A stretch of 39,684 bases of DNA, from positions 1-39,684 of the IMG/VR virus record IMGVR_UViG_3300031758_000189. One strand, given 5' to 3'. This DNA comes from a virus. Each line of letters starts with the position of its first letter. The stretch's first letter is position 1. Of the stretch, positions 1 to 39,684 are shown piece by piece. A program made the translations under genes and the position numbers. The notes under the pieces were generated by a model, which was not told where the DNA came from, made no database searches, and worked only from the letters and a program-made list of their open reading frames with translations.

Positions 1-82
1 TGTTTTCTACAGGCTCGATTGCTGCCGTGGCTTCGAGTTCTGGCGCGGAGGCATCCGCTTCAATAGGAACATTATCGTCCAT
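1..82 (-). CDS. Scaffolding protein, N-terminal fragment (second copy of the 5' end)
   Basis: The leftward reading frame starts at ATG 82 and runs off the left edge after 27 codons. It is base-for-base identical to the first 82 bases of the complete scaffold gene at 36496-37287, and the identity continues upstream to base 127. It is not a separate gene. It is the point where the contig wraps onto itself, so in the real genome this fragment continues into the scaffold sequence ending at 36496. Confidence 0.85.
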   Translation of the reverse strand, partial: MDDNVPIEADASAPELEATAAIEPVEN

Positions 83-127
83 GTTTAACCCTTAAAGAGT
101 TCCTGATGAGCCGCATCAGTACGGTTG
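1..127. repeat. 127-bp exact repeat of 37206-37332 (contig wrap point)
   Basis: Bases 1-127 match 37206-37332 without a mismatch (constant offset 37205). Similarity continues imperfectly through the following hairpin (to about 160) and then breaks down. The repeat covers the scaffold start codon, its ribosome binding site and part of the leader. The right copy lies about 2.3 kb inside the right edge, so this is not a simple terminal repeat of the contig. Confidence 0.9.
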
Positions 128-130: not shown

Positions 131-160
131 GCTAGACTACATCATTTGATGCAGCATAGC
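131..160 (-). other. Hairpin in scaffold leader, version A
   Basis: Two 14-base arms (131-144 and 147-160) around a TT loop can pair at 11 of 14 positions on either strand. The equivalent element at 37336-37365 pairs at 13 of 14 positions. One pair differs in a compensating way (T-A here, C-G there), which supports a conserved RNA structure in the leader of the scaffold transcript. No T-tract follows on the minus strand, so it does not look like a classic terminator. Function is not known. Confidence 0.5.
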
Positions 161-171
161 AATCATGTTAG

Positions 172-516
172 TTAAGCCCACACGCGGTAAGGCACTGTAG
201 GTTCAACGCTCAAGGGTGTTAGCAATGCCAACTGTTCCTCATTAAAGCTGCCGCGAAGGTTGGTGTGCCAATCGGGATAATTTTCCAAAATGGGTTCGCC
301 TGCTTCGTCGTAACCGATGACCTTCGAGAACGGGCCAATCTGATCGACGTAGAAGCCTTCTGTTGGAACAAGAGCCATCACATCTTGCAGGATTGCGTCG
401 CCGTCCTCAGTCGCACCGACTTCGGTAGCAATGGTCTGCTCAGTGACAATGCCAGCCGCAATCAACGCAGCTTTCATGTCAGCTTCAGCAGGGGTTTTTA
501 GGTATAAATCTTTCAT
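172..516 (-). CDS. Conserved phage hypothetical protein next to tail spikes (114 aa, cassette A)
   Basis: A 114-aa acidic soluble protein with no signal peptide or membrane segment. It begins MKDLYLKTPAEADMKAAL and ends with a WHTNLRG stretch at about 83-89 and PYRVWA at the C-terminus. Small proteins of this style are common beside tail fibre genes in proteobacterial phages; a chaperone or minor virion role is possible but unproven. It is the last gene of the tail-spike cluster before scaffold. In the alternative cassette at the right end its place is taken by an unrelated 90-aa protein. The ribosome binding site is weak. Confidence 0.7.
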   Translation of the reverse strand: MKDLYLKTPAEADMKAALIAAGIVTEQTIATEVGATEDGDAILQDVMALVPTEGFYVDQIGPFSKVIGYDEAGEPILENYPDWHTNLRGSFNEEQLALLTPLSVEPTVPYRVWA

Positions 517-792: not shown

Positions 793-2124
793 TTAGATCG
801 GCCACCATTTGTCAGTCGATTCTTCATATACAAATCGAATAATTTGACCCGCTGTCATTGACGCAGGGAACAATGATACGTCTGACGCCGCAGACCATGT
901 TATTGATGTGATAGCCTCTTTGGTGTAAATCGACAGTGTCTGGCCTTGGCGGTATACATTTCCTACATACCCAAGCGTGACGTTGATGAGCGTCATTGTT
1001 CCCGTAGGCGCAAAGATCATCGCATCCGTGGAATTTAAAACACGATAGTTTATGCTTGTTCCGCCGGTAGGCGCTAAATATTGAACCGCTTTTCCGCCAT
1101 ATGTGCCAGAAGAAGCAGTCATAAAGCTGCTTACGTTGCCTATGACATCAACGCGCCGTAAATCTTTATCGGCGTCGGTTCCGGTATAGATCGCTTCCAT
1201 TTTATTGACGCAACCATTTTGCCCTGGCCCTTGTAGCGACCAATTATTATTGGCGGCTGCAAACGGGTGCAGCGTGCCGGTCACAAGAAAACGGGGGTTA
1301 ATAATCAAACTGTTTTCAAATGGCTGGAGGCAATATGTAATTTTGGTTGAGTTTGTGGGGTTCAAAATTACCGTCGGGGTAATAAGAACTTGGTTAAACC
1401 CTTGAAGCACAATCCCGTAAGGCGTCGGAGGCGTGACTGGTAATTCTTCAAGTGACAGGTTTAAGTAGGTGATATTCTGCCCAGTGCAGACAATTTGCCC
1501 GTCTGTAATCAACCTTGTAAATGTGTTGTTAAACCCGCCATGTTCTATGACGCGCCCAGTGGCCGACGTAACAATAAAGAAGTCGTATATATTGTAGACG
1601 CCACCATTCAATACGACAGAGGTGGTCTGCGTTCCCACGATGTCCATGCGGAAAGTGCAATAAAACACGTTGCTTGCAGTATAGGCCTGCATATTCAACG
1701 CTTGGTATGATTGCGAAATAATCATGTCGAAATGCGAACGGTAAATTGCAAAGATGCCAAGGGCTTCAATCTTGACAGCCGCAACAGTTGCAGACGCATG
1801 GCCTACGACACCGAAATTCTCTAGACGCAACGACAACAGTTGTCCGACAGTTGCGTCCGACAAGCAGTTAATTGCAGGCTGGTTTGGATCGCGCTGCAAA
1901 AACCGTGTGTTTTCGTAGCCGCCGCCGAACAGATTGACCTGATCGTATATGCGAAGGCCAGCAATAGAGTAGTCACCGGGAGGGCAATACACATATTTTG
2001 ACGCCTGCTGCGCCGCTTGAATAGCTGCCGTACTGTCAGCAACACCTGTCGGGTCTGCGCCGAAGTCCAAAATGTTGGCGGCAGCGCCTTCGATCATTGA
2101 GTATGTTGCTTTAGTAAGGCTCAT
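793..2124 (-). CDS. Tail spike with pectate-lyase-like beta-helix (443 aa, cassette A)
   Basis: The N-terminus MSLTKATYSMIEGAA is followed by LDFGADPTGVADSTAAIQAA (about 19-38), the signature start of the Pectate_lyase_3 / glycosyl hydrolase 28-like right-handed beta-helix fold used by phage tail spikes and depolymerases. The body is rich in short beta-strand-like repeats with many Asn, Val, Ile and Thr, as expected of a parallel beta-helix. The C-terminal 100 residues form a separate beta-rich region ending STDKWWPI. It probably binds or cleaves a surface polysaccharide; catalytic residues cannot be assigned by eye. The N-terminal 40 residues match the 414-aa spike at 37712-38956, then the two diverge completely, so the shared part is probably the virion anchor. 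RBS AGGA lies 9 bases upstream, over the stop of the previous gene. Confidence 0.85.
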   Translation of the reverse strand: MSLTKATYSMIEGAAANILDFGADPTGVADSTAAIQAAQQASKYVYCPPGDYSIAGLRIYDQVNLFGGGYENTRFLQRDPNQPAINCLSDATVGQLLSLRLENFGVVGHASATVAAVKIEALGIFAIYRSHFDMIISQSYQALNMQAYTASNVFYCTFRMDIVGTQTTSVVLNGGVYNIYDFFIVTSATGRVIEHGGFNNTFTRLITDGQIVCTGQNITYLNLSLEELPVTPPTPYGIVLQGFNQVLITPTVILNPTNSTKITYCLQPFENSLIINPRFLVTGTLHPFAAANNNWSLQGPGQNGCVNKMEAIYTGTDADKDLRRVDVIGNVSSFMTASSGTYGGKAVQYLAPTGGTSINYRVLNSTDAMIFAPTGTMTLINVTLGYVGNVYRQGQTLSIYTKEAITSITWSAASDVSLFPASMTAGQIIRFVYEESTDKWWPI

Positions 2125-2133: not shown

Positions 2134-3300
2134 CTATTTTGAAAATGCTTGCACTTCGGCATTTGTTAGCCGCTGCGGATAGAAAGACAATTTTGATATA
2201 TGCTTATTTAAGAAAAACGTACCGTTCAAACTACCAAGTATAAGGCTTGTTGGCGTAGTGGGGACGGCAGAAGTCGCGGATACTGCGCTGGCGCTTACTG
2301 CAAAGGCGCAGTTATTAAGTTTGTAAGCTATTGCGCTTGTGTAGGCTGCCCCAGACGATATGGTAACGGACGATGAGCCTGTTCCATTTATGACTGATGA
2401 CACGGCTGTGGCCGATGTTTGCCGCACATAAAGTTCATTCCCGGGGCCTACTGCGTCAAATGGAACGGCCCATTGACCTGTGCTTGGGTTACCGCCGGTT
2501 GTAGCGCACACAAACGTCCCTTCACTGGCATTAAACCAACTGCTGAAGTTCGTCCCAGTCATACTCACAGCGTCAGGATTGCGTGTTATAGATGTGCCAG
2601 TGTTAGGTATAACGGAAGTAGGAAAAGCGCCTTGCTCCGCCTGCATCAATATAAAATACACAACGCTGCCGCCAGTTACGCTGACGCGGTATTGGTTCGA
2701 CGAGACGCTTGACGCGCCGATAGAGACAAGACGTTGATATACCGACGTTACCGCAGGTGAAGTTCCGCCCGGTGTCCAAGTTCCTGCGTTTACGTCAAAA
2801 GAAAACGATCCTGATCCGCGTGCGTATGTGGAGAAAGCCCATGTGTTTGCGCCTAAAGTGATTGAGTTATTTACTCGCGCATAGAAAGGAGTTGTTCCGG
2901 CGCTGTTGTCGAGCTTGAACACTTTACCCGTGCTGCAAAGGCCGCTCAATCCGGCTGCTGCGAGAGCGGCGTCATCCGAAACAACGCTGAGAGAACCAGC
3001 CGCGTCTCCGAAAGTTGTCCACCCAGTTATGCCGGTTGGGTTTACGGAGTCTACGCCGCTTAGTGCGTTAGTCCGTTGCTCCTCAATCAGTAAGCCTTTA
3101 GGCGCAAGCGTGGTAGGATTGTAGTCAAAACGTGGGCCGTTAATCGCAGCCGTCTGAATAGAGCCGTTGCTACCAACAAATGTCCCTGTCGATGCGCGTG
3201 TAAATGTAACACGGGGGTCAAGAACACCAGTTGTAAAATCCAACGCCATGCGCGGGAGGACACGCTCAGTAGCAGTAGGGCTATAGGCAGGAGTAATCAT
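2134..3300 (-). CDS. Tail fibre/appendage protein with LamG-like domain (388 aa)
   Basis: The N-terminal half contains the phage pattern VTFTRASTGTFVGSNG, then PRFDYNPTTLAPKGLLIEEQ and RTN (about 31-80), recognised from many phage and prophage tail proteins. The remainder is Gly, Ser, Thr and Val rich and resembles two concanavalin-type beta-sandwich modules; LamG-like carbohydrate binding is inferred. Its ATG (3298-3300) directly abuts the TAA of the 731-aa spike (3301-3303), implying translational coupling. It ends 9 bases before the 443-aa spike. Likely an adhesin in the tail fibre cluster. No catalytic signature seen. Confidence 0.75.
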   Translation of the reverse strand: MITPAYSPTATERVLPRMALDFTTGVLDPRVTFTRASTGTFVGSNGSIQTAAINGPRFDYNPTTLAPKGLLIEEQRTNALSGVDSVNPTGITGWTTFGDAAGSLSVVSDDAALAAAGLSGLCSTGKVFKLDNSAGTTPFYARVNNSITLGANTWAFSTYARGSGSFSFDVNAGTWTPGGTSPAVTSVYQRLVSIGASSVSSNQYRVSVTGGSVVYFILMQAEQGAFPTSVIPNTGTSITRNPDAVSMTGTNFSSWFNASEGTFVCATTGGNPSTGQWAVPFDAVGPGNELYVRQTSATAVSSVINGTGSSSVTISSGAAYTSAIAYKLNNCAFAVSASAVSATSAVPTTPTSLILGSLNGTFFLNKHISKLSFYPQRLTNAEVQAFSK

Positions 3301-5496
3301 TTATACCCCCGTCACACGGAACCAAGCCGCCCATGTGGTAGCGTCAATGGCTTTACGGAAATAAATGTCATCTAGATCAGTTGCGCTATAGTCAGGATAA
3401 AAGAACTGGATTGTAGCTGTTTCGGTATTGCTAGATGGTCGGCGCGTTTCGACCATACCGTTATCATTTGCGGTTACGATAGCCACGTTTTGATACCGCG
3501 CCTGAGAAACGCCGTAAGGGTACGTATTAGCCGCGTCAGAAATAGTTTTAAGGTTGAAAGTAGACCCTGCGAAGTTGTTTTGGAGCGCGCGAAAATTATG
3601 TGTTTCAGTGTTGGGGTGGTAGTTGTTGTCCCATATGTTAGTCGCAACAACCTGTGTGCCTGCGACCACAACAATCTCATTCGTGATAGAACCTAAAAAC
3701 TGATTTCCTACGATGGATATTTCTTGGATAGTGTTGCCCACCAAGCCAAGTGACATATGGGACTGAGTAGCCCCGCGTAGAGTATTGTTGCGGAAATTAA
3801 GCGTTGTAATGTTGTTGCTTACCACCACAGGAACCGACACGTTGGAGACCAACATATTGCCGACAATGTCAATTTCTTTGGATGTTCTGCCAGATGTAGT
3901 GTTGTCCCCGATCAAAATACGACCGTAACCTGATGTAGATGCAAACGTAGAGTTGTCCACAATGGACAACCCATAAACAGAACCGAAAGGGTGGAACAAA
4001 ATATGTTCACAGTCTGTGATGGTGTTGTCCGCTATGATGACTGCGTTAGGGACAGTGCCTAGCGTGTTACTGCAATACAGACTGACAGCATTGTTGGTGG
4101 CAAATGTGTTTCCAATAACAATGATGTTTGCCCAATTTGCGTTGGCGATATTGTCAACAGAGATGGCAATGTGACCGCGATTTCCGCCGCAGTTGCTGAA
4201 CTTGTTGCCGCTGATGGTGACGTTTTTGATAATACCAAACGCGTCATCTGGCTCCAAACAAATGCAACCGGGCATATCGTTACGCGACCAGTTGCGGAAC
4301 ACGTTACCTTCGATGGTGGCGCGGTCAACGTCGATGAAGCTGATCGCATTGCGGCCACCAGTTGCGCCGTAAAGAACGCCATCGAATACGCAGTCGCGGA
4401 TCACAACATCAAAATTGTGCCGCTCTGTCCCACCGCCTGCGCCGGAACCAATCAAAATTGCATCAGAGCGAGGCCCTTCAAAAAAGCATTTTTCGATAAC
4501 AACACGACGCACACCGTTCATGCGTAGCAAGTGCCCATAGGTTTCGTTGTGACCAAGTGTAGCAACATCACCGAGGAACTTGAGGTTGCTAAACTTTACG
4601 TCGTTAATAAACGCTGAAGATGATCCGCTGTCAAAGTTAATGCAGCTACTTGCGGGGTTATATGAGAACCGCTTGATGATACTTTTTTCACCGTCGCCAT
4701 AGACATTATAGCCAGTTCCGCTCGTAATAAGACAGCCGGAACTGTTGCCAGCATCCACACAATAAGTGCCTTCTGGCACATATATATTTGGCGCAGCCGT
4801 CATAGCCGCAAGAAACGCCGCAGAGTCATCCGTTACGCCATCGCCAACAGCACCGAAGTCCTTGACCGAAACATATTGGGCCAGTTTGGCCTCTACGTTT
4901 GTAGCAACGCTGCCAGTAAACGGTGGCTCATAACTAACAATTGACGCGTCTACAGCGCCGGTAGTTGTCTGAACTGCGGTTGTAAACTTGACTTCGCCGC
5001 CGACGTGTACGCCAGACGTAAACGTCACGGTGTCGCTGTCCGTTTCCAGATAGCTGTCACCAACATATTGGTTCACACCGTCGATGTATACCGACAGCGA
5101 ATTTGTACCGGGCGTGTAGTTGATCGTCGATAGGTTAAACACAGTCTGGCCGGCGGTGGCCGTGATGACTTCTTCCTGCACCGTGTAGTTGACGAAGTTG
5201 GAGTTGACGCCTGTAATGTTGTCGTAAGTGCCAATCAGGATGCTTGCGGCAGTCTCAATGACAAACTTGTACACCAGACCGTCAGTCAGCCAAATCTCGC
5301 CGCCCGGTACGCGTCCTGCGCTGTCCAATATGATAGGGTTGGCGTGTGGCGTAACGCCAGTCGCGCTGGTGTAAGACGTCTGCGGTGTGGTCGTGCCGGC
5401 TGCATAGGTGTAAATCTTGCCGCCTGACAAGATAACACCGTTGTTGTCAAAAAACTGAGCCGCGAACCCGCCAATGGGGGAAGGAGTTACTGACAT
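3301..5496 (-). CDS. Large tail spike: head-binding domain, beta-helix and C-terminal knob (731 aa)
   Basis: Residues 1-110 carry FFDNNGVILSGGKIYTYAAG and a GGEIWLTDGLVYKFVI segment, an N-terminal domain common to podovirus tail spikes that attaches to the tail hub. Residues about 205-250 contain VSVKDFGAVGDGVTDDSAAF, the entry of a pectate-lyase-type right-handed beta-helix. Coil repeats then run to about 620 (VVIRDCVFDGV, ATIEGNVFRNW, VTISGNKFSNCGGN, VIIADNTITDC). The last 90 residues (YPYGVSQARYQN to ATTWAAWFRVTGV) resemble a knob-like trimerisation/receptor domain of the pyocin-knob style. It is the longest fibre gene in the cluster and probably the main receptor-binding or depolymerase spike. 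Catalytic Asp/Glu residues cannot be assigned without a structure. Confidence 0.85.
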   Translation of the reverse strand: MSVTPSPIGGFAAQFFDNNGVILSGGKIYTYAAGTTTPQTSYTSATGVTPHANPIILDSAGRVPGGEIWLTDGLVYKFVIETAASILIGTYDNITGVNSNFVNYTVQEEVITATAGQTVFNLSTINYTPGTNSLSVYIDGVNQYVGDSYLETDSDTVTFTSGVHVGGEVKFTTAVQTTTGAVDASIVSYEPPFTGSVATNVEAKLAQYVSVKDFGAVGDGVTDDSAAFLAAMTAAPNIYVPEGTYCVDAGNSSGCLITSGTGYNVYGDGEKSIIKRFSYNPASSCINFDSGSSSAFINDVKFSNLKFLGDVATLGHNETYGHLLRMNGVRRVVIEKCFFEGPRSDAILIGSGAGGGTERHNFDVVIRDCVFDGVLYGATGGRNAISFIDVDRATIEGNVFRNWSRNDMPGCICLEPDDAFGIIKNVTISGNKFSNCGGNRGHIAISVDNIANANWANIIVIGNTFATNNAVSLYCSNTLGTVPNAVIIADNTITDCEHILFHPFGSVYGLSIVDNSTFASTSGYGRILIGDNTTSGRTSKEIDIVGNMLVSNVSVPVVVSNNITTLNFRNNTLRGATQSHMSLGLVGNTIQEISIVGNQFLGSITNEIVVVAGTQVVATNIWDNNYHPNTETHNFRALQNNFAGSTFNLKTISDAANTYPYGVSQARYQNVAIVTANDNGMVETRRPSSNTETATIQFFYPDYSATDLDDIYFRKAIDATTWAAWFRVTGV

Positions 5497-5499: not shown

Positions 5500-5913
5500 T
5501 TACACACCTAAATTGCCGGCAGCCACAAATGTGTTAGCGACCGGGCAGATAAGAGAAATAACCGCATATTGGCCCATCGTGCTGAACAGCGACGAATATG
5601 ACACGAGTGTCTGCCCACCAGCCGCAACAGTGACTTTACCTGCGCCGCCTTGAATAATTGTGACGTTAAAGCCGGCGCCAAGTCCTGCCGCGCAAGTGAT
5701 TGTCGTTGCCGAGCCGCTAGTGCAGTAAATAATTTTGCCGTTGTCCGTTGCCGACAGCGTCCGTGCGGTTGTGGCTTCTGTCACAATTACGCCGGTAAGC
5801 ATCTGTTGTACGGTAACTTTTTTGGTCGTGGCGCTCTGCACCGCCGGCAATTCTTCCGTAAGCGCCAGCGGAGTTGTGACCGCGGTAAGTTGCGAGATTT
5901 TCTTGTCGGCCAT
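5500..5913 (-). CDS. Small structural/fibre-like protein (137 aa)
   Basis: Begins MADKKISQLTAVTTPLALTE, a start seen in many phage fibre-base or head-fibre proteins. Continues with a beta-rich, Gly/Thr/Val/Ala-rich body with no membrane helix. Probably a minor virion component or the adaptor for the spike whose gene begins 3 bases downstream; the exact role is unknown. It lies 4 bases after the stop of a 53-aa gene in the same transcript. Confidence 0.7.
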   Translation of the reverse strand: MADKKISQLTAVTTPLALTEELPAVQSATTKKVTVQQMLTGVIVTEATTARTLSATDNGKIIYCTSGSATTITCAAGLGAGFNVTIIQGGAGKVTVAAGGQTLVSYSSLFSTMGQYAVISLICPVANTFVAAGNLGV

Positions 5914-22737: not shown

Positions 22738-22751
22738 AGTAGCCTTTTTGC

Positions 22752-23027
22752 ATGACTGAGAAAGAAATAGAGCGGTATTTCTGTAAACGTGTGCGGGCAG
22801 CGGGCGGTTTTGCCTATAAGTTCCGCAGCATTACGCAGATCGGCGTCGCCGACCGCATCGCCTGTATGCCTAACGGTGAGGCTTGGTTCGTAGAACTGAA
22901 GCAGCCTAACGGCAGGCTGTCTGCGTTGCAGCGTATCTTTTCTGATGAGATGACGCACACCAAGCAGCACTACGCGTGCTTGTGGTCTAAAGAGGATGTG
23001 GACGCATGGCTCAAACGCTTCAGCTAA
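22752..23027 (+). CDS. VRR-NUC domain nuclease (91 aa)
   Basis: Starts MTEKEIERYFCKRVRAAGGF and contains ITQIGVADRIACMP (Asp34) and AWFVELKQPNGRLSALQ (Glu48, Lys50), the PD-(D/E)XK core of stand-alone VRR-NUC proteins. Such nucleases usually accompany a SNF2-like helicase in phage genomes, as here (the helicase overlaps by 22 bases). Predicted to act as a structure-specific or Holliday-junction-type nuclease in phage recombination. No clear ribosome binding site upstream. Confidence 0.9.
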   Translation: MTEKEIERYFCKRVRAAGGFAYKFRSITQIGVADRIACMPNGEAWFVELKQPNGRLSALQRIFSDEMTHTKQHYACLWSKEDVDAWLKRFS

Positions 23028-31410: not shown

Positions 31411-32259
31411 TTATACCTCCAAGGAACTCACGTTGTCAGTCACGGTCAAAATAATTGATGGGACGGCTGGGTGAACAGCCGTGGCAGGGTCTGCGTGCAG
31501 CGACACGCCGGTGTTGTCTACTTCCCACATCAACTCAAAATAATCGCCTGCGTTCATCTGTAGCAGAAAGTTCCACGCTGCGACATCCTCAGTGTTGTTT
31601 CCTTGAATACGAACGACGGTCGCGCTGTTGGTTACGTCGGTGCCATTCTTGCGTAGCCACACCCAAACGCGGTGAGCGCCGCCGCCAGTGTTAATAAACT
31701 GCGCGGAAAATTGTATGTTGTAGATGTTAGAGCGGTCAACATAAATGCGCGACGTTGGTGTGCCGCGTGTGACGCCGTAAGTTATATCGGTGGCGTTAAA
31801 CGTCATGGCATAGGCCGTGTTAATGACAGCGGCGGTCTGATCGGTCGTGTCGTAGAACGAGCCATAGCGCGGCGAGATAAATTCTTTTGGTGGCGGCGCT
31901 AATGCCAGCGCCTGAAGCTGCGTCTGAATGACCGCGATTTCGCTTTCCGACGCGGCAGGCGGTGCGCTGGCGGTAGCTTGCGCGAGGCTGTTTACCTTAG
32001 CGTCTACATCTGCCGTCGCGCTGCAACAGTCAGGCGCGCTCTCTGTGGTCTGCGCCAGCGACTCCAGCATAGCGTCGTAGGACGCTATCAGCGATGTAGC
32101 GTCAGGCGCTAACTCGATTTCATCTTGGTTGGTCTGCGTCGCAGTCAACAGCGATAGAAAGAACCGATACCATTCACGGCTGATAGCGCCTGACCGCGGG
32201 TCGATCAGATCGACGCGCGGCGGCGTTAACTGTGTAGGGTTAATCGGTGAAAGCGCCAT
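31411..32259 (-). CDS. Tail-needle-like protein, P22 gp26 position, with C1q/TNF-like C-terminal domain (282 aa)
   Basis: The N-terminal PPRVDLIDPRSGAISREWYR and FFLSLL (about 13-38) is a recurrent phage virion-attachment motif. Residues 45-120 are helical and coiled-coil-like (LIASYDAMLESLAQTTESAP), as in a trimeric needle shaft. The C-terminal 150 residues are a beta-sandwich with FDIT-like strands (VDRSNIYNIQFSAQFINTGG; LLQMNAGDYFELMWEVDNTG) that resemble C1q/TNF-like knobs. P22 gp26 and its Sf6 relative plug the tail and lie at this gene position. Homology is inferred by position and architecture. Confidence 0.6.
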   Translation of the reverse strand: MALSPINPTQLTPPRVDLIDPRSGAISREWYRFFLSLLTATQTNQDEIELAPDATSLIASYDAMLESLAQTTESAPDCCSATADVDAKVNSLAQATASAPPAASESEIAVIQTQLQALALAPPPKEFISPRYGSFYDTTDQTAAVINTAYAMTFNATDITYGVTRGTPTSRIYVDRSNIYNIQFSAQFINTGGGAHRVWVWLRKNGTDVTNSATVVRIQGNNTEDVAAWNFLLQMNAGDYFELMWEVDNTGVSLHADPATAVHPAVPSIILTVTDNVSSLEV

Positions 32260-33689
32260 TAGGCCCGCGTCCCTGACAGCAGCAGTTCAGCACCCATGAT
32301 GTAGATGCGTACAGGATCAGTCCCTGACGCCTCGTAGACGCGGTCGCGTATCTTCAGTGTCGCACCAAGGCGGCGCCAGATCGTGCGGTAGCCAGACCGG
32401 CCAATCTGCCCCATCGACTTCCAGTGTTCGTTCGACCATGTGTGACCGCCATCGTCGGACCAACGCAGCATCACTTGCGGATTGCTGCCTTGGCCGTTGT
32501 TCAGACCAACGCCTGTCTCGCAGTCAAGCTGCATGGAGTGCTGGATAGTACGGGCGAGGTTGTTAGCGCCTGTCGGCAGCGCCCGCCACGACCGCAGCCA
32601 TTTCTGCGGTTGACCGTCGTCAGCGTACACGTTCAGGTCAAACTCGTAAATCTTGCCGTTCTGGTAGTCGCCGACAACGGTAGTGCTGTTGAAGAACATT
32701 TGGCTGCTGGCGCGGTGACGGTTAAACTCGCCGTTAACAAACGACGCACGCTCATGCCATGCGCCAGTAGCGACGTCGTACACCCATGTCGTGTCGGCGC
32801 TAGGGAAGTTCAGCACGTAGAAGCTGTGGCCGTCCTGCTGGTATGTGTAGCCTGTAGCGTCCGAGATGTCGGCGTACTCTTGCATCTGCCATTCGATAGC
32901 GTGCGTTGACACGCGCTGACCGATGTAGCCAGCAGCGCGGTAGACGATGCCTTGACCGCGGGCGTCCTTGCCCAGCCAGTAGACTTGGTTGTCCATCTTG
33001 GCGACGCTGTACGGCGCCGCGCAGCCCAGTTCGTTAAACGCGCCTTGGATACGCGTCAGCGGGAAGTCGAGCAGCCCTGCGTCGTACCAAACTTCGGTCG
33101 AGTTGGTACCAAACACCCAGACTTCGCGGTGGTCCACAAAGATAGCAACCACATTGTCAGGATTGCCTTCGGCGCTGGCAAACTCCAGCGGGTCAACGCT
33201 GGTGCCGTCAAGCAGCGACGTCACCCAAATCTTCTGGCTATTCGGTTCGTTGAACACAAAATAGCCGTCGATGTATCCAACCGTACCCGCGCCGGGGAAG
33301 TCAGGGTCGGTGATCTGCTGGAACACGTCAGTGTTGGCGTTGTAGATGTAGCCCTGCGGGTTGGCGGCTATGAATAGCTGCGTGCCGTTGTCGGCCATGC
33401 TGACAGGGCCAGTGCCGCCTACAGTGCCTTTGGCGACCGCGTTCCAGTTGCTGTCGATCTGAAACAGCGTTGGGCCAGACACGGCGTAGCCGTAGTCGCC
33501 ATACGTCCACAGCCCGCGGATAGGTCCGATGCCGACCGTAGCCAGACGGGTTAGCCCCGGCGCGCGCTGAAGAAAGGCAGGCTCTTTGCCGCCTTCCGGC
33601 ACGATCTCTGGAAAGAGGTTGACCATACGGTTGTCTGCGGCGTTGACGCTTCTTGCGACATACGCCGACCCAAGGATCGGCGTCTTCAT
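32259..33689 (-). CDS. Tail hub / DNA stabilization protein, P22 gp10-like (476 aa)
   Basis: Length (P22 gp10 is 472 aa) and position after gp4 match. The N-terminal YVARSVNAADNRMVNLFPEI is the family signature, and the protein is predicted to be a beta-propeller with repeats such as PIRGLWTYGDYGYAVSGPTL and VVAIFVDHREVWVFGTNSTE. The C-terminal part contains MLRWSDDGGHTWSNEHWKSM. It seals the portal channel and forms the platform to which tail needle and spikes attach. Overlaps both neighbours by one base. Confidence 0.88.
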   Translation of the reverse strand: MKTPILGSAYVARSVNAADNRMVNLFPEIVPEGGKEPAFLQRAPGLTRLATVGIGPIRGLWTYGDYGYAVSGPTLFQIDSNWNAVAKGTVGGTGPVSMADNGTQLFIAANPQGYIYNANTDVFQQITDPDFPGAGTVGYIDGYFVFNEPNSQKIWVTSLLDGTSVDPLEFASAEGNPDNVVAIFVDHREVWVFGTNSTEVWYDAGLLDFPLTRIQGAFNELGCAAPYSVAKMDNQVYWLGKDARGQGIVYRAAGYIGQRVSTHAIEWQMQEYADISDATGYTYQQDGHSFYVLNFPSADTTWVYDVATGAWHERASFVNGEFNRHRASSQMFFNSTTVVGDYQNGKIYEFDLNVYADDGQPQKWLRSWRALPTGANNLARTIQHSMQLDCETGVGLNNGQGSNPQVMLRWSDDGGHTWSNEHWKSMGQIGRSGYRTIWRRLGATLKIRDRVYEASGTDPVRIYIMGAELLLSGTRA

Positions 33690-34399
33690 CAGTAGTTGCC
33701 CGCGAAGATGTTAAACCGCTGACGCGTCGCCACGATGCTGTATGGCATCGACATGATGTCGTCAGGGTTGTTGATGCGCTTCAGGTTGCGCTTCGATGCC
33801 ATAGCCAGACGCGATACCTGCGGTGACGGCTCTACGCCAAACTCAGGTGCCATCTCGCACGCCAAGTTGTAACGGAACGCACGCAGATAGCCGGGCGGGA
33901 AATGCAGTGTGGTCGCCAGCGTTGCAGGCTGGGTCAGTTCTTCGACCGAAATGAAGTGCCATTCCAGTTCGCGCGTAGGGCGCGGATAGATGTACATTTC
34001 GATGTCGGGGAACGTCATGTTGACGAAAATAACCTGCGGGTAGGTAGACGTCACGGTCTTGACCGCGATACCGTTATACTGCTGCTGGTTAATAAATTTG
34101 ATGCCGTAGCTGACGCCAGTGCCGGGGTCGCGGAAGTACGTCGAGTCCTCAAGCAGCACAGGGCGGTTGCCGATGAAGTCGCCAGAAGGGCCAAGCGTGC
34201 GCGACAACTGACCGGCAGGCCACATGAATACTTGGTCTTGCGTTGCGTAGACCGCGAGGCGCTCAGTGTTCCAGCTATCAATCATCTGGTTCATGGCGCG
34301 CAGTGCGTCTTGCGACGTTTCAGCCGATGGAACTTCACCTTCTGCCAGAACGCCTAGAAGCCTAAGCGAACCGTTAATTATGTCCCCAGCCGTTTCCAT
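33689..34399 (-). CDS. Tail accessory factor / head-tail connector, P22 gp4-like (236 aa)
   Basis: The N-terminal METAGDIINGSLRLLGVLAE with TSQDALRAMNQMIDSWNTER (about 28-47) is the typical helical start of gp4-type and T7 tubular-A-type connectors. It continues to a beta-rich C-terminus with FPPGYLRAFRYNLACEMAPE. P22 gp4 is 166 aa, so this version is longer by an insertion in the middle (about 60-150). It binds the bottom of the portal. Reads directly into the gp10-like gene with a one-base overlap. Confidence 0.85.
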   Translation of the reverse strand: METAGDIINGSLRLLGVLAEGEVPSAETSQDALRAMNQMIDSWNTERLAVYATQDQVFMWPAGQLSRTLGPSGDFIGNRPVLLEDSTYFRDPGTGVSYGIKFINQQQYNGIAVKTVTSTYPQVIFVNMTFPDIEMYIYPRPTRELEWHFISVEELTQPATLATTLHFPPGYLRAFRYNLACEMAPEFGVEPSPQVSRLAMASKRNLKRINNPDDIMSMPYSIVATRQRFNIFAGNY

Positions 34400-34402
34400 T
34401 GG

Positions 34403-34582
34403 TTAGTCTTCCTGCGTTGCGCGGCGGCGTTTGCTGCCCGCCGACATTTCGTTAACGGGCGCCACTACAGGGGCGTCAGGGTAAAAGCGTTCCCAACCAT
34501 ACTCTTCATCGCAGCGCGCTTCTTCTTCAGAGATGGCAACTTTTGCGCCGTGGACGTCGTGAACAAGGTAGATAACAGCCAT
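34403..34582 (-). CDS. Small hypothetical protein (59 aa)
   Basis: ATG 34580-34582 to TAA 34403-34405 encodes MAVIYLVHDVHGAKVAISEE followed by EARCDEEYGWERFYPDAPVV and a basic tail SKRRRATQED. RBS ACGGAG precedes it. Small virion-region proteins that start AVIYLVHDxHGxKVAxxExEA are frequent in podovirus genomes next to the connector. Function unknown. Situated between the second paralogous structural protein and the gp4-like gene. Confidence 0.65.
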   Translation of the reverse strand: MAVIYLVHDVHGAKVAISEEEARCDEEYGWERFYPDAPVVAPVNEMSAGSKRRRATQED

Positions 34583-34598
34583 AAAAACTCCGTAAAAT

Positions 34599-34618
34599 GG
34601 ACGGCCCGAAAGCCGCCC
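34599..34618 (-). other. GC-rich hairpin with UUCG-type loop, copy 3
   Basis: On the minus strand GGGCGGCU and GGCCGUCC flank UUCG, with one G-U inside the stem and a U-G closing pair, followed by ATTTTACGGAG. It lies between the 98-aa and 59-aa genes. It may act as a partial terminator, attenuator or mRNA stabiliser. Confidence 0.55.
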
Positions 34619-34625
34619 AGATTAA

Positions 34626-34922
34626 TTAACTGATCGCCATGAACTGCCACTTGGTGCCGTCTGCATAGAACAGCTTGCCACGGCCAGTTGCATTGGTTGT
34701 GATACCAAGCGAACCAACAGGGGCAGAAGTGGTTGTCGTGTTAGCGGTGATTGCAGTGCTAAGGATATAGACGCCAGCATTAAGGTTGGCAGCGGCAATA
34801 TCGCCAGTAGTCTGGATGGTAGAAGCGATAACGCCACCGTTTGCAACAATCGCGCCGCTGACAGTTACGCTTTCAAATGAAGGATCGGCGTAAGCAACGC
34901 CTACTGCTTTAGTATTAGGCAT
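34626..34922 (-). CDS. Small structural protein, tandem paralogue 2 (98 aa)
   Basis: MPNTKAVGVAYADPSFESVT is followed by a Thr/Ala/Gly-rich middle. The C-terminal NLNAGVYILSTAITANTTTT and GRGKLFYADGTKWQFMAIS matches the 83-aa neighbour residue for residue at about 60% of positions. Probably a virion decoration, head-fibre or connector-associated protein since it lies directly after coat. Preceded by CAGGAGATC and by the copy 2 hairpin. Exact role unproven. Confidence 0.7.
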   Translation of the reverse strand: MPNTKAVGVAYADPSFESVTVSGAIVANGGVIASTIQTTGDIAAANLNAGVYILSTAITANTTTTSAPVGSLGITTNATGRGKLFYADGTKWQFMAIS

Positions 34923-34940
34923 GATTGATCTCCTGAAAAT

Positions 34941-34960
34941 GGGCGGCCCGAAGACCGCCC
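34941..34960 (-). other. GC-rich hairpin with UUCG tetraloop, copy 2
   Basis: Minus strand GGGCGGUC, loop UUCG, GGCCGCCC: an 8-bp stem (one U-G pair) closed by the extra-stable C(UUCG)G tetraloop. It is followed by ATTTTCAGGAG, the leader and ribosome binding site of the 98-aa gene. The T-run is short, so termination is likely partial. Confidence 0.65.
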
Positions 34961-34967
34961 AAATTGG

Positions 34968-35219
34968 TTAAGCAACTACAGCGAACTGCCACTTAGTGCC
35001 GTCGGAAATGAACATCTTGCCAAGTCCTGTTGCGTTCGTGGTCACGCCAATCGAACCCGCAGGGGCGTCGGTCGTCGTGCTGTTTGCAGTGATTGCAGTC
35101 GTAAGGAAGTAGATGCCTGCGCCCGATGAAGCAGTAAGGATCGAGCCGCCGAGCAGCTTGGCTGCATCAACGTTGCCATCTGAAACCTGATAGGCGGAAC
35201 CGCCATTTGGTAATGCCAT
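34968..35219 (-). CDS. Small structural protein, tandem paralogue 1 (83 aa)
   Basis: Starts MALPNGGSAYQVSDGNVDAA with SSGAGIYFLTTAITANSTTT and GLGKMFISDGTKWQFAVVA. The ITANxTTTxAPxGSxGxTTN block and the GKxFxxDGTKWQF ending are shared with the 98-aa gene downstream, so the two arose by duplication. Encoded immediately after the major coat gene, where decoration or head-fibre proteins are usual. Preceded by CAGGAG, itself following the copy 1 hairpin. Confidence 0.7.
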   Translation of the reverse strand: MALPNGGSAYQVSDGNVDAAKLLGGSILTASSGAGIYFLTTAITANSTTTDAPAGSIGVTTNATGLGKMFISDGTKWQFAVVA

Positions 35220-35239
35220 GATAATTCTCCTGAAAAGTT

Positions 35240-35265
35240 ATGGCCCCCGGCGAACCGGAGGCCAT
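35240..35265 (-). other. GC-rich hairpin with UUCG loop, copy 1
   Basis: On the minus strand ATGGCC and CCGG arms pair with GGCC(AT) and CCGG around TTCG, with one A-C mismatch. It lies just after the coat stop codon (35273) and is followed by AACTTTTCAGGAG. First of three similar hairpins after coat. Confidence 0.6.
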
Positions 35266-35272
35266 GATTAAA

Positions 35273-36481
35273 TTAGCCCCACATCCGGACGGCCATTTGC
35301 GGACGGATCGTGCTGTAGCCATACAGAACGTCAATACGGCAAGGCATACGGTCGTTGTTGATGTCGTACTGACGAACAACGCGGAGCGAGATGCCGTTGT
35401 GTACCTGACGCGATGCCATGTCTACGCCCTGTGGGAGCAGAAGGTCGGCGGTTGCGAAGGTGATGGCATCCTTGTGGTATACGAGGTTCTGCGCGTACTG
35501 CGACGATGCTGCACCGACGAACACAACAGCTTTGCTGTTGCCGGGCAGTGTGTTGACAGTGGCAAGCGCATGGCTGGCTGAGTAGACAGGTGCAACAGTG
35601 ATGTTGCCTGCGCCAGAGCCGTTGAGCGTGACATCAGCCAACGCAACGAACTGGAACAACGAACCTGTGCTTTCACGCGTCTGTGGGTTAACTGCAAAGC
35701 AGTCAGCTACAGTGAACACGTCGCCAGCTTTGACGGTGTCGCCGTTACCAGCGCCAGTGATGGCGATGGTGGTTGCACCTTCAGTGGTGACAGCAGCCGA
35801 AGTCGTGCCGCCGGTTGCGTCGCGCGAACCAGTGGTGAACTGCTTGATGGACTGCGACATATTGATTTCTTCGAAACCAAGTACGCCAGTACCCATCATG
35901 CCGTTCTTGAACTGCTTGCTGACAGTGTCGGTTGGGTTGAACAAGCCCTTCATGCCTTCGACCAAGCCAGCGTTTGCGGCTGGGTTGACGGTGGCATAAC
36001 GTGGCGACATCACAGCAGCGTTTTCGTTCAGCTTCTGCTGTGCAGCAAGAAGAACAGCCGAAGTAGCTGGCGTAGTGCCGGGCGTGCCGACCGAGTTACC
36101 GATGGTTGCAAACGCGTTTGCAACGTCAGCGTCGATGCTGGAAGCAAGCTGCGAGATACGTGGCTTGAGAACGCGCTCTGCGAAATCATCCAACTGCATG
36201 GTCAATTCAGCAGTCGTGAAGTTGACGCCGATGTGCTTCTGGTTGGCAACGGTCAGCGTTGTGAACTGCTCGTTGTCGTCCTGTACCTGAAGGGCTGCAC
36301 CGTCGGTAACAAGCGCACGGTCTGGAAGACGGATACGCAGAGTTGAGCCGATCTTGGCGCCTTCAACAGCAAAGCTGTCGTCGTACTGGCGGTTTACGTT
36401 ACGTGTAAGCACGAGGTTGTTCTCAAGGATTTCGAGAGCCTTCCGCGTGATCATATCAATGGTTAAAATGCTATTGGACAT
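35273..36481 (-). CDS. Major capsid protein, P22 coat-like (402 aa)
   Basis: MSNSILTIDMITRKALEILE, NNLVLTRNVNRQYDDSF and IGSTLRIRLPDR (about 1-55) match the P22 gp5-type coat start. The middle (GDTVKAGDVFTVADCFAVNP, followed by QTRESTGSLFQFVALAD) contains the hallmark of this HK97-fold family. P22 coat is 430 aa, so this is slightly shorter. It assembles on the scaffold gene encoded 14 bases upstream. Probably the most expressed gene; the hairpins downstream may tune expression of the smaller proteins. Confidence 0.93.
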   Translation of the reverse strand: MSNSILTIDMITRKALEILENNLVLTRNVNRQYDDSFAVEGAKIGSTLRIRLPDRALVTDGAALQVQDDNEQFTTLTVANQKHIGVNFTTAELTMQLDDFAERVLKPRISQLASSIDADVANAFATIGNSVGTPGTTPATSAVLLAAQQKLNENAAVMSPRYATVNPAANAGLVEGMKGLFNPTDTVSKQFKNGMMGTGVLGFEEINMSQSIKQFTTGSRDATGGTTSAAVTTEGATTIAITGAGNGDTVKAGDVFTVADCFAVNPQTRESTGSLFQFVALADVTLNGSGAGNITVAPVYSASHALATVNTLPGNSKAVVFVGAASSQYAQNLVYHKDAITFATADLLLPQGVDMASRQVHNGISLRVVRQYDINNDRMPCRIDVLYGYSTIRPQMAVRMWG

Positions 36482-36495
36482 GGGGTATTCCCTAT

Positions 36496-37287
36496 TTAAC
36501 GGTTACGTTGTGCCTCGTACTTCTTGATCTGCCGTAGCCGTTCTGCTTCGATCCATTCCGACGTACTCATCGTTTTAGTCGAACGAGGGTCGGTCGTATC
36601 GTACTGGCTGGTGCCAGTAGAACGTGCAGTGACAGGAGCAATCGGTGCCGGGGCGGTTGAAGTTTTCTTAACCGGCGGATTAGAAGCCAATCCGGCCTCA
36701 ATTTTTCCGATTTCCTTTGCTTGCAAGATCGGGTTCAAGCGAGAAATGCGATCAGCTTCTTTGGGGTTGGTGCCTAACCAATAAAGCAGGTCAGGGCCAA
36801 CGTCCGAAGACTGTATGCTTTGTGCCATGTAATCCGTGACAGGCAGGTTAGGATTGTAGGCGACTTGGTCGAAGTCGTCATATCTATCCCGCGCCGTTTC
36901 TTCACGGTCATGGTACTGCTCAAGCATAGCCTGCTGTTCTCTGGCGGTTGCCCGCCGTTCCAGCAACACTTCCGCTTTATGCTCTGCCAAGGCATCGGCA
37001 TAATCTTCGTAAGTGTCAAACTGCTCAGGGACCAAATCGGCTGGGGCTTGCGCCGGTTGCCGAGACTGGGCTTCAGCTAGTTTCTGTGCTTGCTCTCGTT
37101 CCCACTTGCGTTGTTCTCTCGCAAGTCGCTTGCCAACAATCGCGTCCAATTCTTCTTGTGAGAAGGTCTTAGATGCTTCCTGTTCAGCAGGCGTTTCCGG
37201 CGTCGTGTTTTCTACAGGCTCGATTGCTGCCGTGGCTTCGAGTTCTGGCGCGGAGGCATCCGCTTCAATAGGAACATTATCGTCCAT
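36496..37287 (-). CDS. Scaffolding protein (263 aa)
   Basis: Very acidic N-terminus (MDDNVPIEADASAPELEATA) and long coiled-coil helices (VGKRLAREQRKWEREQAQKL; ADALAEHKAEVLLERRATAR). A basic C-terminal helix-turn-helix-like end (STSEWIEAERLRQIKKYEAQ) is as in P22 gp8, whose C-terminus binds coat. Located right before coat as in P22 (303 aa). The first 82 bases are repeated at the left edge. RBS AAGG precedes the ATG. Confidence 0.85.
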   Translation of the reverse strand: MDDNVPIEADASAPELEATAAIEPVENTTPETPAEQEASKTFSQEELDAIVGKRLAREQRKWEREQAQKLAEAQSRQPAQAPADLVPEQFDTYEDYADALAEHKAEVLLERRATAREQQAMLEQYHDREETARDRYDDFDQVAYNPNLPVTDYMAQSIQSSDVGPDLLYWLGTNPKEADRISRLNPILQAKEIGKIEAGLASNPPVKKTSTAPAPIAPVTARSTGTSQYDTTDPRSTKTMSTSEWIEAERLRQIKKYEAQRNR

Positions 37288-37332
37288 GTTTAACCCTTAA
37301 AGAGTTCCTGATGAGCCGCATCAGTACGGTTG
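37206..37332. repeat. 127-bp exact repeat of 1-127
   Basis: Second copy of the scaffold 5' end and leader. Beyond 37332 the sequence diverges, and the genes upstream of scaffold are different from those at the left edge. Confidence 0.9.
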
Positions 37333-37335
37333 TAG

Positions 37336-37365
37336 GCCAGACTACATCATTTGATGCAGTCTGGC
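37336..37365 (-). other. Long hairpin in scaffold leader, version B
   Basis: GCCAGACTACATCA pairs with TGATGCAGTCTGGC at 13 of 14 positions around a TT loop. The counterpart at 131-160 has a compensatory pair change. No T-run follows on the minus strand. It overlaps the 21-base repeat at 37355-37375. Confidence 0.6.
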
Positions 37366-37375
37366 AATATCGTTA
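37355..37375 (-). repeat. 21-base direct repeat, copy 1 (begins at a stop codon)
   Basis: Reads on the minus strand TAACGATATTGCCAGACTGC plus A. It starts with the TAA of the 90-aa gene and matches 37694-37714 with one mismatch. Confidence 0.7.
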
Positions 37376-37645
37376 AACTTCTGCTTCTGGCAGTGCTACC
37401 GGCGCTAGTTTAGCTTGCTCTGCGGCATACGCAGCTACCACTTCGGCAGTGTGCGTTGCGGCGCAGACAGCCTGCACGCGTGCATCTTCGGCGCTGTAGT
37501 CATCGCCGGGCGCGACAACGTGACGGTGGAATGTGCCGCTGATCTGTTCGCCGTCTTCGAGGATGGCGGTCTTTGTGCGTACTTGCACATTGCCATTCTC
37601 AAGGACTTCAATCTTATCGACCACTACGTTTTTCTCTAAAGCCAT
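37373..37645 (-). CDS. Small conserved phage protein (90 aa, cassette B)
   Basis: MALEKNVVVDKIEVLENGNV with VRTKTAILEDGEQISGTFHR and HVVAPGDDYSAEDARVQAVC. This EKxVVVDxIEVLENGxVQVR family is widespread as a small protein next to tail fibres in environmental and proteobacterial phages and has no known function. RBS AGGAG precedes the ATG. It takes the place of the 114-aa and 65-aa genes of cassette A, and is flanked by 21-base direct repeats that begin at its own stop codon and at that of the spike. Confidence 0.75.
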   Translation of the reverse strand: MALEKNVVVDKIEVLENGNVQVRTKTAILEDGEQISGTFHRHVVAPGDDYSAEDARVQAVCAATHTAEVVAAYAAEQAKLAPVALPEAEV

Positions 37646-37693
37646 TTTTTTCTCCTGTTTCCAGACCAGCTATCCCGCTGGACATTAGGTTAT

Positions 37694-37714
37694 TGCAGTC
37701 CGGCAATATCGTTA
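37694..37714 (-). repeat. 21-base direct repeat, copy 2 (begins at a stop codon)
   Basis: Minus strand TAACGATATTGCCGGACTGC plus A, beginning with the TAA of the 414-aa spike. One mismatch to 37355-37375. Confidence 0.7.
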
Positions 37715-38956
37715 CGTGTCAACAACGATAGTCTTGACAGTACCATCGCCAAATACGATTTTTAAATCACCATCGGCCACATCAACAAAAATTTGCGCCC
37801 AACCTAATTCGGTGTTGGGCTGAGTAACACCGTCTACCAAACTCAATTCTGTCATGCGCCTTTTATATTGCGTTTGATCTTGAATGACCGTGCCCGTCCC
37901 TTGGAAAAGGTCTATTCGGTTATTAAGCTGTGTTTTTCTTGCGTATCCGATTGACGCATTTGAAAGCTGCACAGGAATGTCAATTACGCATCCCGAAGGG
38001 GCATCTGAAGTGTCGGCAGCATGAAAACGAACGGGGTCGTGACCAAGCGTTCCCCATTCACCATCCCATGTTCCACCTGTAATACGCACGTTGTATACGT
38101 TGCGAGTTCTGTCTGCGCCTGCGTTTGTAGCGTCGTCGTAGTCGATAACGCGGCCAATCCGAAAACCGTCATACGTTACAGCTTCAAGATACGGGTCAAT
38201 CACGTTAATGTCCCAAACGCCGGCGCTGGCCCCGTTCAACGGGTCAATAACCATGGCTACGTCATTACCTTCTAGCAAAGGCCGAATGAATGTTTGGCCG
38301 TAAATGGCTTTGGATACATCCTTCGGTTGAATTACAACGCCAAATCGGCCCTCTTTAAAGCTGCAACCTACCCAAGATGAGCAAGTCACATCGCCAACTA
38401 GTTGTAAGCCAACGTAGCAGTTGTCTGACAGCACAGCCTCTGCAACAATCGGAAAGCAGAAGTCTACTTTGTAACCAACATAAAAGTTGAACGCCGTGAT
38501 ATTACGCAACGTGATGTTGATTGCGTAGTTAAAGAAGATGCCGACCAGCGTATGTGGTGGAACACCACTTGGGTTGATTGTACCAAGTGAAGGGCCGATA
38601 AGACTTAGCCCCTCCATGAAGAACCGCGACTTTTCCTCAAACAAGCCGAGGCCAGAGCCAAAGGTTATCATGTTGCCAGTTGTCAACGCCGTATTGGAAA
38701 AGTCTATCGTGGCGCAATCGCCGACTACAGCGTGGAAATGATTTTGCGAGGAATAGGCGACTGTAAAATCTAAAGCGCCGTCACAGCGGTAAGTCCCGGC
38801 AGGAAAAAACAGCGTGCCGTTTGACGTTTTTACGCTATTCCAAGCGGCTTGGATTGCAGCCGTTGAGTTTGTTGCACCTGTCGGATCAGCCCCATAATCT
38901 AAAACGCTAACAGGCGCTCCAGAAATCATTGAGAAACTTGCTTTTGTTAGCGACAT
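37712..38956 (-). CDS. Tail spike with pectate-lyase-like beta-helix (414 aa, cassette B)
   Basis: MSLTKASFSMISGAPVSVLD and YGADPTGATNSTAAIQAAWN begin the same Pectate_lyase_3-type entry as the 443-aa spike at 793-2124, about 60% identical over 40 residues. The body (LFFPAGTYRCDGALDFTVAY, NITLRNITAFNFYVGYK, VRITGGTWDGEWGTLGHDPV) is then unrelated. Likely a beta-helix receptor-binding or polysaccharide-degrading spike with a swapped specificity domain. A C-terminal 60 residues (LSLVDGVTQPNTELGWAQIF) forms a separate beta-rich end domain. The start overlaps the Shine-Dalgarno region at the previous stop (TAAGG). Confidence 0.85.
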   Translation of the reverse strand: MSLTKASFSMISGAPVSVLDYGADPTGATNSTAAIQAAWNSVKTSNGTLFFPAGTYRCDGALDFTVAYSSQNHFHAVVGDCATIDFSNTALTTGNMITFGSGLGLFEEKSRFFMEGLSLIGPSLGTINPSGVPPHTLVGIFFNYAINITLRNITAFNFYVGYKVDFCFPIVAEAVLSDNCYVGLQLVGDVTCSSWVGCSFKEGRFGVVIQPKDVSKAIYGQTFIRPLLEGNDVAMVIDPLNGASAGVWDINVIDPYLEAVTYDGFRIGRVIDYDDATNAGADRTRNVYNVRITGGTWDGEWGTLGHDPVRFHAADTSDAPSGCVIDIPVQLSNASIGYARKTQLNNRIDLFQGTGTVIQDQTQYKRRMTELSLVDGVTQPNTELGWAQIFVDVADGDLKIVFGDGTVKTIVVDT

Positions 38957-38965
38957 GATAATACC

Positions 38966-39684
38966 TTAAACAAAATAGAACCCGTTGAACAATATTTCAG
39001 TATCATTGTTGAAGTTTGCATCCGTCAAATTGACAGTCGCTCCAGCGCCGGGGACTTTTAAAACGGCAGTCGTTGCGCTATTTTCAATGATAGCCCACGG
39101 TTGCGTTGTTACTAAAGAAAGTCCGTAGTAGAAATAAAGTTGGATTCCACCGTTGTATGTGCTGTCTTTTGCAAACGGCAATCCAGTAATTCGAGCAACA
39201 CCAGTCGCGCTGCCTTTGCTGGTCAACTCAATGCGGCCATTAAAATAAACAGTGCGGCCAATTTTTGTATATTTTCCGTTCCTGCGGCCTGACGCATAAG
39301 TTATGCCCGTAGACAAATTATCAAATGAAATTCCGTAATCGGTAATTTCACCTTCCTCATAGTCATTCAGCAATTCGCTGGTCATGCCTGCCGCGTGCGT
39401 GTTCGCGCTGAAGTCGATGCCTTTGCCAGCAGTGCCGATTGCAAGGTTATCTCGTGAAACAGTAACTTTACCGTTTTTATCTATTACTACCGACTCAGAG
39501 CCAGCAAGGTTTCCGTCGGCAGTCAACAATCGAATAGTGCTTCCGCCGCCAGAATTTGACGATCCAGCATTAATGTCAAGCACGCGGCCATATATAAATG
39601 CACTTGGGTAGTTTGTAGCTTGATAAAAAGCTACGTTAGCTACATCAGAGTTTGCCCAAGTTATTGTGGAGCCTTCAACACTTT
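38966..39684 (-). CDS. Tail fibre C-terminal region, partial at the right edge (cassette B)
   Basis: The frame is open to the window edge, so the N-terminus is missing; a GTG at 39583 is only an internal codon. About 238 residues are visible. They include GSTITWANSDVANVAFYQAT (edge), DKNGKVTVSRDNLAIGTAGK and the block YTKIGRTVYFNGRIELTSKG, typical of C-terminal beta-sandwich domains of phage tail fibres. It ends DTEILFNGFYFV, 9 bases before the spike start. In cassette A the corresponding upstream gene is an unrelated 388-aa LamG-like protein. Probably a second receptor-binding fibre of the alternative cassette. Confidence 0.8.
   Translation of the reverse strand, partial: SVEGSTITWANSDVANVAFYQATNYPSAFIYGRVLDINAGSSNSGGGSTIRLLTADGNLAGSESVVIDKNGKVTVSRDNLAIGTAGKGIDFSANTHAAGMTSELLNDYEEGEITDYGISFDNLSTGITYASGRRNGKYTKIGRTVYFNGRIELTSKGSATGVARITGLPFAKDSTYNGGIQLYFYYGLSLVTTQPWAIIENSATTAVLKVPGAGATVNLTDANFNNDTEILFNGFYFV

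Follow-up and report, generated by a model that had tools for sequence, protein, structure and literature searches.

The window analysed here, the whole stretch of 39,684 bp, is the complete IMG/VR virus record IMGVR_UViG_3300031758_000189, which is classed as linear. Within it, two different sets of host-recognition genes, here called cassette A and cassette B, meet the start of one scaffold gene. Bases 1-127 are an exact match of bases 37206-37332 over exactly 127 nt; beside one copy stand open reading frames (ORFs) of 114, 443 and 388 amino acids (aa), and beside the other ORFs of 90 and 414 aa and an open ORF of 238 aa that encodes a fibre end. This arrangement was proposed in an initial annotation made from the letters, and it has been borne out with one correction: the 65-aa ORF assigned to cassette A exists, but as the internal-ATG form of an 82-aa ORF with a TTG start (585-833). 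In our judgement, the record very probably combines the circular genome of a P22-coat podovirus (37,205 bp, with cassette A) and 2,352 bp of a second, closely related strain (with cassette B), which were assembled together, the join being at a conserved hairpin element ahead of the scaffold gene.

The product names have also held. The scaffold label agrees with a PHROGs family match (Table 1), and the 238-aa fibre piece is the C-terminal part of a 291-aa fibre, of which the related contig L084 has the full length. The 388-aa protein had been called LamG-like; its model, of modest confidence (pLDDT 63), resembles concanavalin-A-like domains with Z up to 16.9, a predicted fold that is widespread and indicates no specific function. 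The 443-aa and 414-aa spikes, estimated initially to be about 60% alike over their first 40 residues and divergent thereafter, are identical at 27 of these 40 (67%), and past residue 75 their score of 40 stands at the level of shuffled sequences (mean 38, maximum 66). The difference between the alleles extends into the 731-aa first spike of cassette A, which corresponds to an 849-aa spike in L084: within residues 1-250 the two agree at 221 of 245 aligned residues, and after that at 102 of 371. A conserved N-terminal anchor with an unrelated C-terminal part, as in modular receptor-binding proteins, is what was found here, and the spikes of the two alleles would presumably bind different hosts.

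Cassettes A and B on separate contigs

Scanning with the B spike found four loci, namely L084 at 100% and three at 73%; with the A spike 43 loci were found, of which L088 and L089 match at 100%, L090 at 93% and the remaining 40 mainly at the anchor end. L088, L089 and L090 carry cassette A without B, and L084 carries B without A, each joined to the same scaffold-coat core, as expected from the initial suggestion that the population holds both alleles or that close relatives were co-assembled. L084 is identical to window positions 39684-31391 (100% over 8,294 bp) and continues beyond the window end into the full fibre, the 849-aa spike and the small genes behind the portal gene. L088 passes from cassette A directly into scaffold and coat.

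Downstream from the leader pattern that precedes the scaffold gene, L088 and L084 are identical over 5,401 nt, and L089 and L090 are identical with L084 for 2,318 and 1,016 nt, respectively, before the first difference. Upstream of this pattern the three A contigs agree with L084 for 8 nt only, beyond which there are 6 differences in 36 nt and then different genes. Identity over 5,401 nt on the core side against 8 nt on the cassette side, for L088 and L084, marks A and B as natural alleles. By this alignment, the biological boundary is placed 8 nt before the leader pattern, most likely not at the end of the 127 nt. The two strains are alike on the scaffold-coat side and unlike in the host-recognition genes between portal and scaffold. 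The small genes behind the portal differ by about 10% between L084 and the window, so the strains diverge there too, beyond the cassette. Of the original proposal that modules are exchanged at a fixed boundary, the preserved anchors and the boundary itself are real; the 127 nt are most likely not that boundary, and the differing block is larger than was supposed.

Table 1. Features of the window that are discussed in the text
Feature	Position	Strand	Basis or remark
Overlap copy of scaffold start and leader (end of A branch)	1..127	-	Identical to 37206-37332
Hairpin I, A version, 33 nt	131..163	-	Right after the 114-aa gene; 4 mismatches against the B version
A: 114-aa gene	172..516	-	phrog_18574, weak
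A: 443-aa spike, MSLTK anchor, pectate-lyase-like start	793..2124	-	PF12708
A: 388-aa tail protein, predicted concanavalin-A/LamG-like fold	2134..3300	-	phrog_5939, E 6e-54, and model
A: 731-aa spike	3301..5496	-	Residues 1 to ~245 common with the 849-aa spike of the B allele; remainder much less alike
A side: 137-aa short fibre	5500..5913	-	N-terminus aligns with that of the 291-aa fibre of the B allele
Major coat protein, P22 coat family	35273..36481	-	PF11651, E 2.4e-36 over 1-402
Scaffold gene	36496..37287	-	phrog_8865, E 2e-34
Scaffold leader	37276..37338	-	Covariance-model match; second copy 71-133
Leader stems	stem 1 37308-37324; stem 2 37292-37306	-	Stem 2 overlaps the ribosome-binding site (by eye)
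Hairpin I, B version	37336..37368	-	Left arm and loop form the recurring 22-nt 3' flank motif
B: 90-aa gene, predicted beta3-alpha2 fold	37373..37645	-	phrog_6228, E 5e-24; model pLDDT 91
Incomplete hairpin-I motif following the B spike	37694..37714	-	
B: 414-aa spike	37712..38956	-	PF12708, E 8.5e-13; 100% copy in L084
B: C-terminal 238 aa of fibre, open ORF	38966..39682	-	phrog_17970; 291 aa in L084 (3256-4131)

The 127-nt repeat and the structure of the record

The window holds no direct 31-mer repeats beyond the copy at 1-127 and 37206-37332, and the likeness of the two copies runs past base 127 to about base 163, at 96%. In a de Bruijn graph with k = 127, a branch leaves behind a shared run of exactly 127. 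The repeat is most likely such an assembly-graph overlap rather than a biological boundary; the exact run fits an overlap of this kind, so the record can be read as a 37,205-bp circle with cassette A and a 2,352-bp branch with cassette B, the latter presumably attached where the graph paths of the two strains meet. The circle is the part of this explanation that we infer, and related contigs of 37,223, 37,879 and 37,912 bp (which may be incomplete) come near its length, with circular records of like size at 37,569 and 38,801 bp. A recipe for metaSPAdes with k up to 127 is in print (PMC7171226), and the present record may have been assembled in a like way.

Overlaps at the same place occur in other data. 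For example, in sample 3300039018 the end of contig L207 is the start of contig L002, with 127 nt in common over the scaffold leader. Record G002, which has a terminal overlap of 446 nt, ends in the 127-nt interval that opens the window (96% identical). Record G016 (IMGVR_UViG_3300034104_000851, 58,385 bp) carries the leader twice, at a distance of 38,190 bases, and its two terminal 20-kb stretches match each other piecewise at 81-91%; it is probably another mixed virus record.

When L088, L089 and L090 are compared with window positions 1-11000 and 30000-37205, several clean internal gaps of tens to a few hundred bases are seen, with near-perfect flanks and in some cases within spike genes. 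The gaps in these A contigs are probably assembly effects, with real deletions as the alternative.

A hotspot between portal and scaffold

Many relatives use the cassette site, which is a hotspot. Among 128 scaffold loci whose flanks were long enough, 107 were distinct, and one clustering rule for both sides (1,000 of 1,500 nt at at least 80%) divided these into 84 clusters on the cassette side against 13 on the scaffold-coat side. Among pairs with 95-99% identical cores, 193 of 248 have no cassette-side similarity, and the same holds for 4 of the 14 pairs with cores at least 99% identical, including L084-L089 and L084-L090; these numbers are descriptive, the loci having come from several queries, some of them cassette-based, and the pairs being non-independent.

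The size of the site varies as well. The cassette occupies about 5.6-6.3 kb between the small gene behind the portal and the scaffold in L084, L088 and L089. Over 103 loci, in which one contig may be counted twice, the 120-aa gene behind the portal is separated from the scaffold by 342-356 bp in 13 cases and by 1.6-7.4 kb in the remaining 90. Locus L009, whose scaffold is 97% identical, has a near-empty site of 350 bp (8845-9195), and the anchor of a 731-aa-type spike lies elsewhere in the same locus (16338-16631), so the spike position seems to move. In L221 (record G008, positions 1-8000), two tandem spikes of 817 and 547 aa with alike anchors, each followed by hairpin I, stand before one scaffold.

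A structured leader before the scaffold gene

The leader was aligned from 65 of 79 distinct sequences, and its structure of two stems was drawn by eye from the same sequences. Stem 1 is paired in all cells of the alignment, and 4 of its 5 pairs show changes on both sides; for stem 2, 83% of cells are paired. The covariation score is 0.585 against a mean of 0.277 in shuffles that ignore relatedness (none of 500 reaches it), and structures slid along the alignment score at most 0.244. An automatic consensus fold found stem 1 and not stem 2. The stability of the leader alone lies within that of shuffles (z -0.16), so the case for it rests on covariation.

A covariance model of the leader gave 33 strong matches (E < 1e-4) in 32 of 55 sources, at scaffold starts, many of these sources being in or near the training set of the model; no strong match was found in the 14 sources without a scaffold match. 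Among the 39 sources with a scaffold start, L224, L259, L260, L261 and L262 have no leader match and L131 has a weak one (E 0.54); the single weak match elsewhere is in L053 (E 0.73). In Thalassomonas phage BA3, a match (E 0.0099) stands in the right place before the scaffold, and the portal there directly precedes the scaffold, so the leader may predate the cassette site. Phage P22, considered as a positive control for the leader, has 13 bases between portal and scaffold, too short for comparison. Scans with Rfam at the gathering score found no match in the window and one sub-threshold match elsewhere in three relatives.

Covarying and without an Rfam family, the leader is a candidate for a new cis-regulatory RNA, and it would govern the expression of the scaffold. 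Scaffold autoregulation is known in P22; by analogy, our guess is that the leader could act as a translational operator.

Hairpin I and the recurring 22-nt flank

Hairpin I folds together with the leader at z -4.7. As a terminator it was rejected, there being no T-run behind it, and a scan found no consensus sigma-70 promoter at the hairpin of the window; TTGACA-like and TATAAT-like hexamers were seen by eye before the leader in several relatives.

In the viral collection, 96 stretches contain the 22-nt motif. Of the 105 motif places in the loci that were fetched, 22 failed the test for a following leader: L237 stands before a variant leader and scaffold, L176 lies inside the cassette of a leader phage, L258 may be so, and the remaining 19 (some contigs twice) are followed by other genes. 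The frames that precede the 22 places comprise 14 MSLTK or MTLTK spikes, 3 members of the 90-aa type, 1 spike with the other anchor and 4 that are cut by the end of the locus. A P22-type coat occurs in 7 of 7 leaderless records searched and in two leader records searched alongside; behind the spike of L121 come a holin-type family (phrog_937) and lysozyme or endolysin families, the other loci having been judged by eye. The motif recurs, then, at another genomic position in a second P22-coat lineage, where the right arm of the hairpin is absent, the structure being lost and the sequence kept. The 90-aa protein family also stands behind a motif-bearing site in two lineages.

Since loci fetched with the motif are biased by it, the fair test was made on loci fetched with proteins; at most 4 mismatches were allowed, and the motif had to lie no more than 70 nt from the stop codon. 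In the loci fetched with the A spike, 7 of 22 MSLTK spikes are followed by the motif, compared with 4 of 423 other genes (Fisher 8e-8), and all four of the latter are the last gene before the leader. Genes other than MSLTK spikes carry it in 3 of 1,033, 1 of 45 and 0 of 150 cases in the other sets, the last set being without such a spike, and none of 5 spikes with the other anchor has it. Among the proteins ending at the motif, 58 are distinct, and these form 39 clusters. L244 and L253, one from each lineage, have a 511-aa spike in common at 90%, and their DNA is alike over a stretch that begins some 400 nt ahead of the spike and closes with the final base of the motif. L202 and L243 are alike, at the sensitivity used, only over 106 nt at the spike start (86%) and 30 nt at the spike end (97%).

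Proposed mechanism and alternative explanations

Starting from what was observed directly (two alleles with a sharp edge between them, a hotspot, short ends in common and covariation in the leader), the following course may be proposed. In mixed infections, phages of this group would exchange spike genes by recombination inside short conserved ends, namely the anchor-coding 5' end of the spike gene and the hairpin behind the last cassette gene, with crossing over taking place at these shared ends; the scaffold leader downstream would be kept fixed because the capsid genes need it. We read the short shared ends as the probable route of spike exchange, with selection on the leader alone as the main rival. 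The fuller form of the proposal is portable exchange of spikes between two lineages and positions through the anchor 5' end and the 22-nt flank, beside an RNA leader that keeps scaffold and coat expression constant and possibly serves as an operator for autoregulation, and this we put forward tentatively.

A possible, if somewhat doubtful, alternative is that selection on the leader alone fixes the boundary, so that recombination may occur anywhere and the shared ends are functional remnants instead of crossover sites. The leader covaries; a like element precedes the scaffold of BA3, where no cassette separates it from the portal; and 15 of the 22 MSLTK spikes in the fair test lack the motif. 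Against this stands the motif of the second lineage, which has kept its sequence despite the loss of the right arm.

The 15 spikes without the motif, among them the A-allele spike, also belong to the findings that weigh against the explanation preferred here, of two co-assembled strains and of spike exchange at shared ends beside a conserved leader. The other protein-fetched sets have the motif behind 1 of 4 and 0 of 1 spikes, numbers that do not allow a test. Of the five covariation measures of the leader, two are not above shuffles, namely the pairs with both-sided changes (8, shuffles 7.7) and the further pair types (17, shuffles 18.8). L084, being identical with the window over 8,294 bp, may share the site or project of the window and may not be independent of it. 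Finally, a general pile-up of contig ends at the leader was looked for and rejected: among 48 whole leader-bearing contigs (of 81 stretches), 2 ends lie near the leader against 2.44 expected, so the individual overlap cases alone were used.

As to the record itself, it is very unlikely that the junction is purely an assembly error and that cassette B never adjoins this scaffold in nature. Mixed contigs do seem to occur, as G016 suggests, but L084 has cassette B joined to scaffold and coat and extends past the window end, and L053, L063 and L076 likewise have a fibre, an MSLTK spike, a gene of the 90-aa type and the scaffold in this order. A real duplication, with both cassettes and two scaffold leaders in a single genome, is slightly harder still to credit. 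The tandem spikes of L221 show that two spikes can stand before one scaffold; however, A and B lie on separate single-cassette contigs, L088 leads from A straight to the scaffold-coat genes, and none of 217 scaffold-bearing loci has both the 114-aa and the 90-aa types (13 have the A type, 40 the B type and 164 neither; duplicates were kept in, and many of the loci end early upstream). The initial annotation had likewise thought a single phage with both cassettes less likely. That one phage alternates the cassettes by inversion or through a diversity-generating retroelement can practically be dismissed: the two cassettes do meet at one boundary and hairpin I is an inverted repeat, but both cassettes have the same orientation, 30 window proteins (small ORFs left out, a few larger ones matchless) gave no integrase, invertase, recombinase or reverse transcriptase match in PHROGs, and the repeats of at least 20 nt in the window are two direct families and three inverted pairs only, with no pair that fits a retroelement.

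Relation to known systems and significance

Receptor-binding proteins that keep their anchors while their receptor domains are swapped have been reported, together with motifs that may help recombination (PMC10408124), and the window spikes similarly combine conserved anchors with an unrelated or much less alike remainder; here, however, several genes between portal and scaffold are exchanged as one block, and some of the spikes are followed by a common noncoding 3' flank. Metaviromic islands, in which host-recognition genes vary between near-identical phages (PMC3909814), are defined by read recruitment, whereas the alleles of the window were recognised on contigs; with the flanks compared, L088 and L084 do show variable host-recognition genes beside their identical core. 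Promoter-early stem-loop (PeSL) cassettes of T4-type phages, as described via PMC4503421, have stem-loops at module joints. An intergenic stem-loop at a module joint is common to PeSL and the window, but the latter case concerns podovirus structural genes and has no consensus promoter at the hairpin in our scan. Short conserved boundary sequences for homologous recombination (PMC3029335) also present short shared ends around different middles, as in the group of the window, in which the ends are an anchor-coding stretch and a 22-nt 3' flank at two genomic positions.

The exchange of spike modules is thus already known; the leader and the 22-nt flank look new, and no description of either was met in the Rfam scans and in searches on related topics, no search by name having been made. 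An odd contig end has here led to a caught case of receptor-module exchange, in which 5.4 kb of identity gives way to different genes over a few dozen bases. The hotspot means that host-recognition genes turn over fast against a nearly constant capsid, and the leader and the flank are testable elements for joining modules without breaking capsid gene expression.

Core genes and minor observations

By its coat protein, the phage of the window belongs to the P22-coat podovirus group (not the genus Lederbergvirus). It has the coat family and the portal-scaffold-coat order in common with P22 (NC_002371), but the portal is not directly followed by the scaffold: a kilobase-scale spike cassette takes the place of the short gap of P22, whose spike gene lies elsewhere. 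In the phage collection, Phage DSL-LC05 (OR003940, a lake metagenome assembly) and MW202483 (from a spring) come nearest.

Homologues of the 114-aa gene precede the scaffold in other contigs. A PDB fold search with the model of the 90-aa protein returned nothing at E <= 0.001. On the minus strand at 21534-22970 lies a PD-(D/E)XK nuclease of the DUF2800 family, possibly a recombination nuclease, adjoined by an SNF2-type helicase (23006-24319). In a region of small ORFs, identical 20-nt repeats with ATG near their ends occur at 13549-13568 and 13897-13916, and weaker copies are found at 14929 and 16097.

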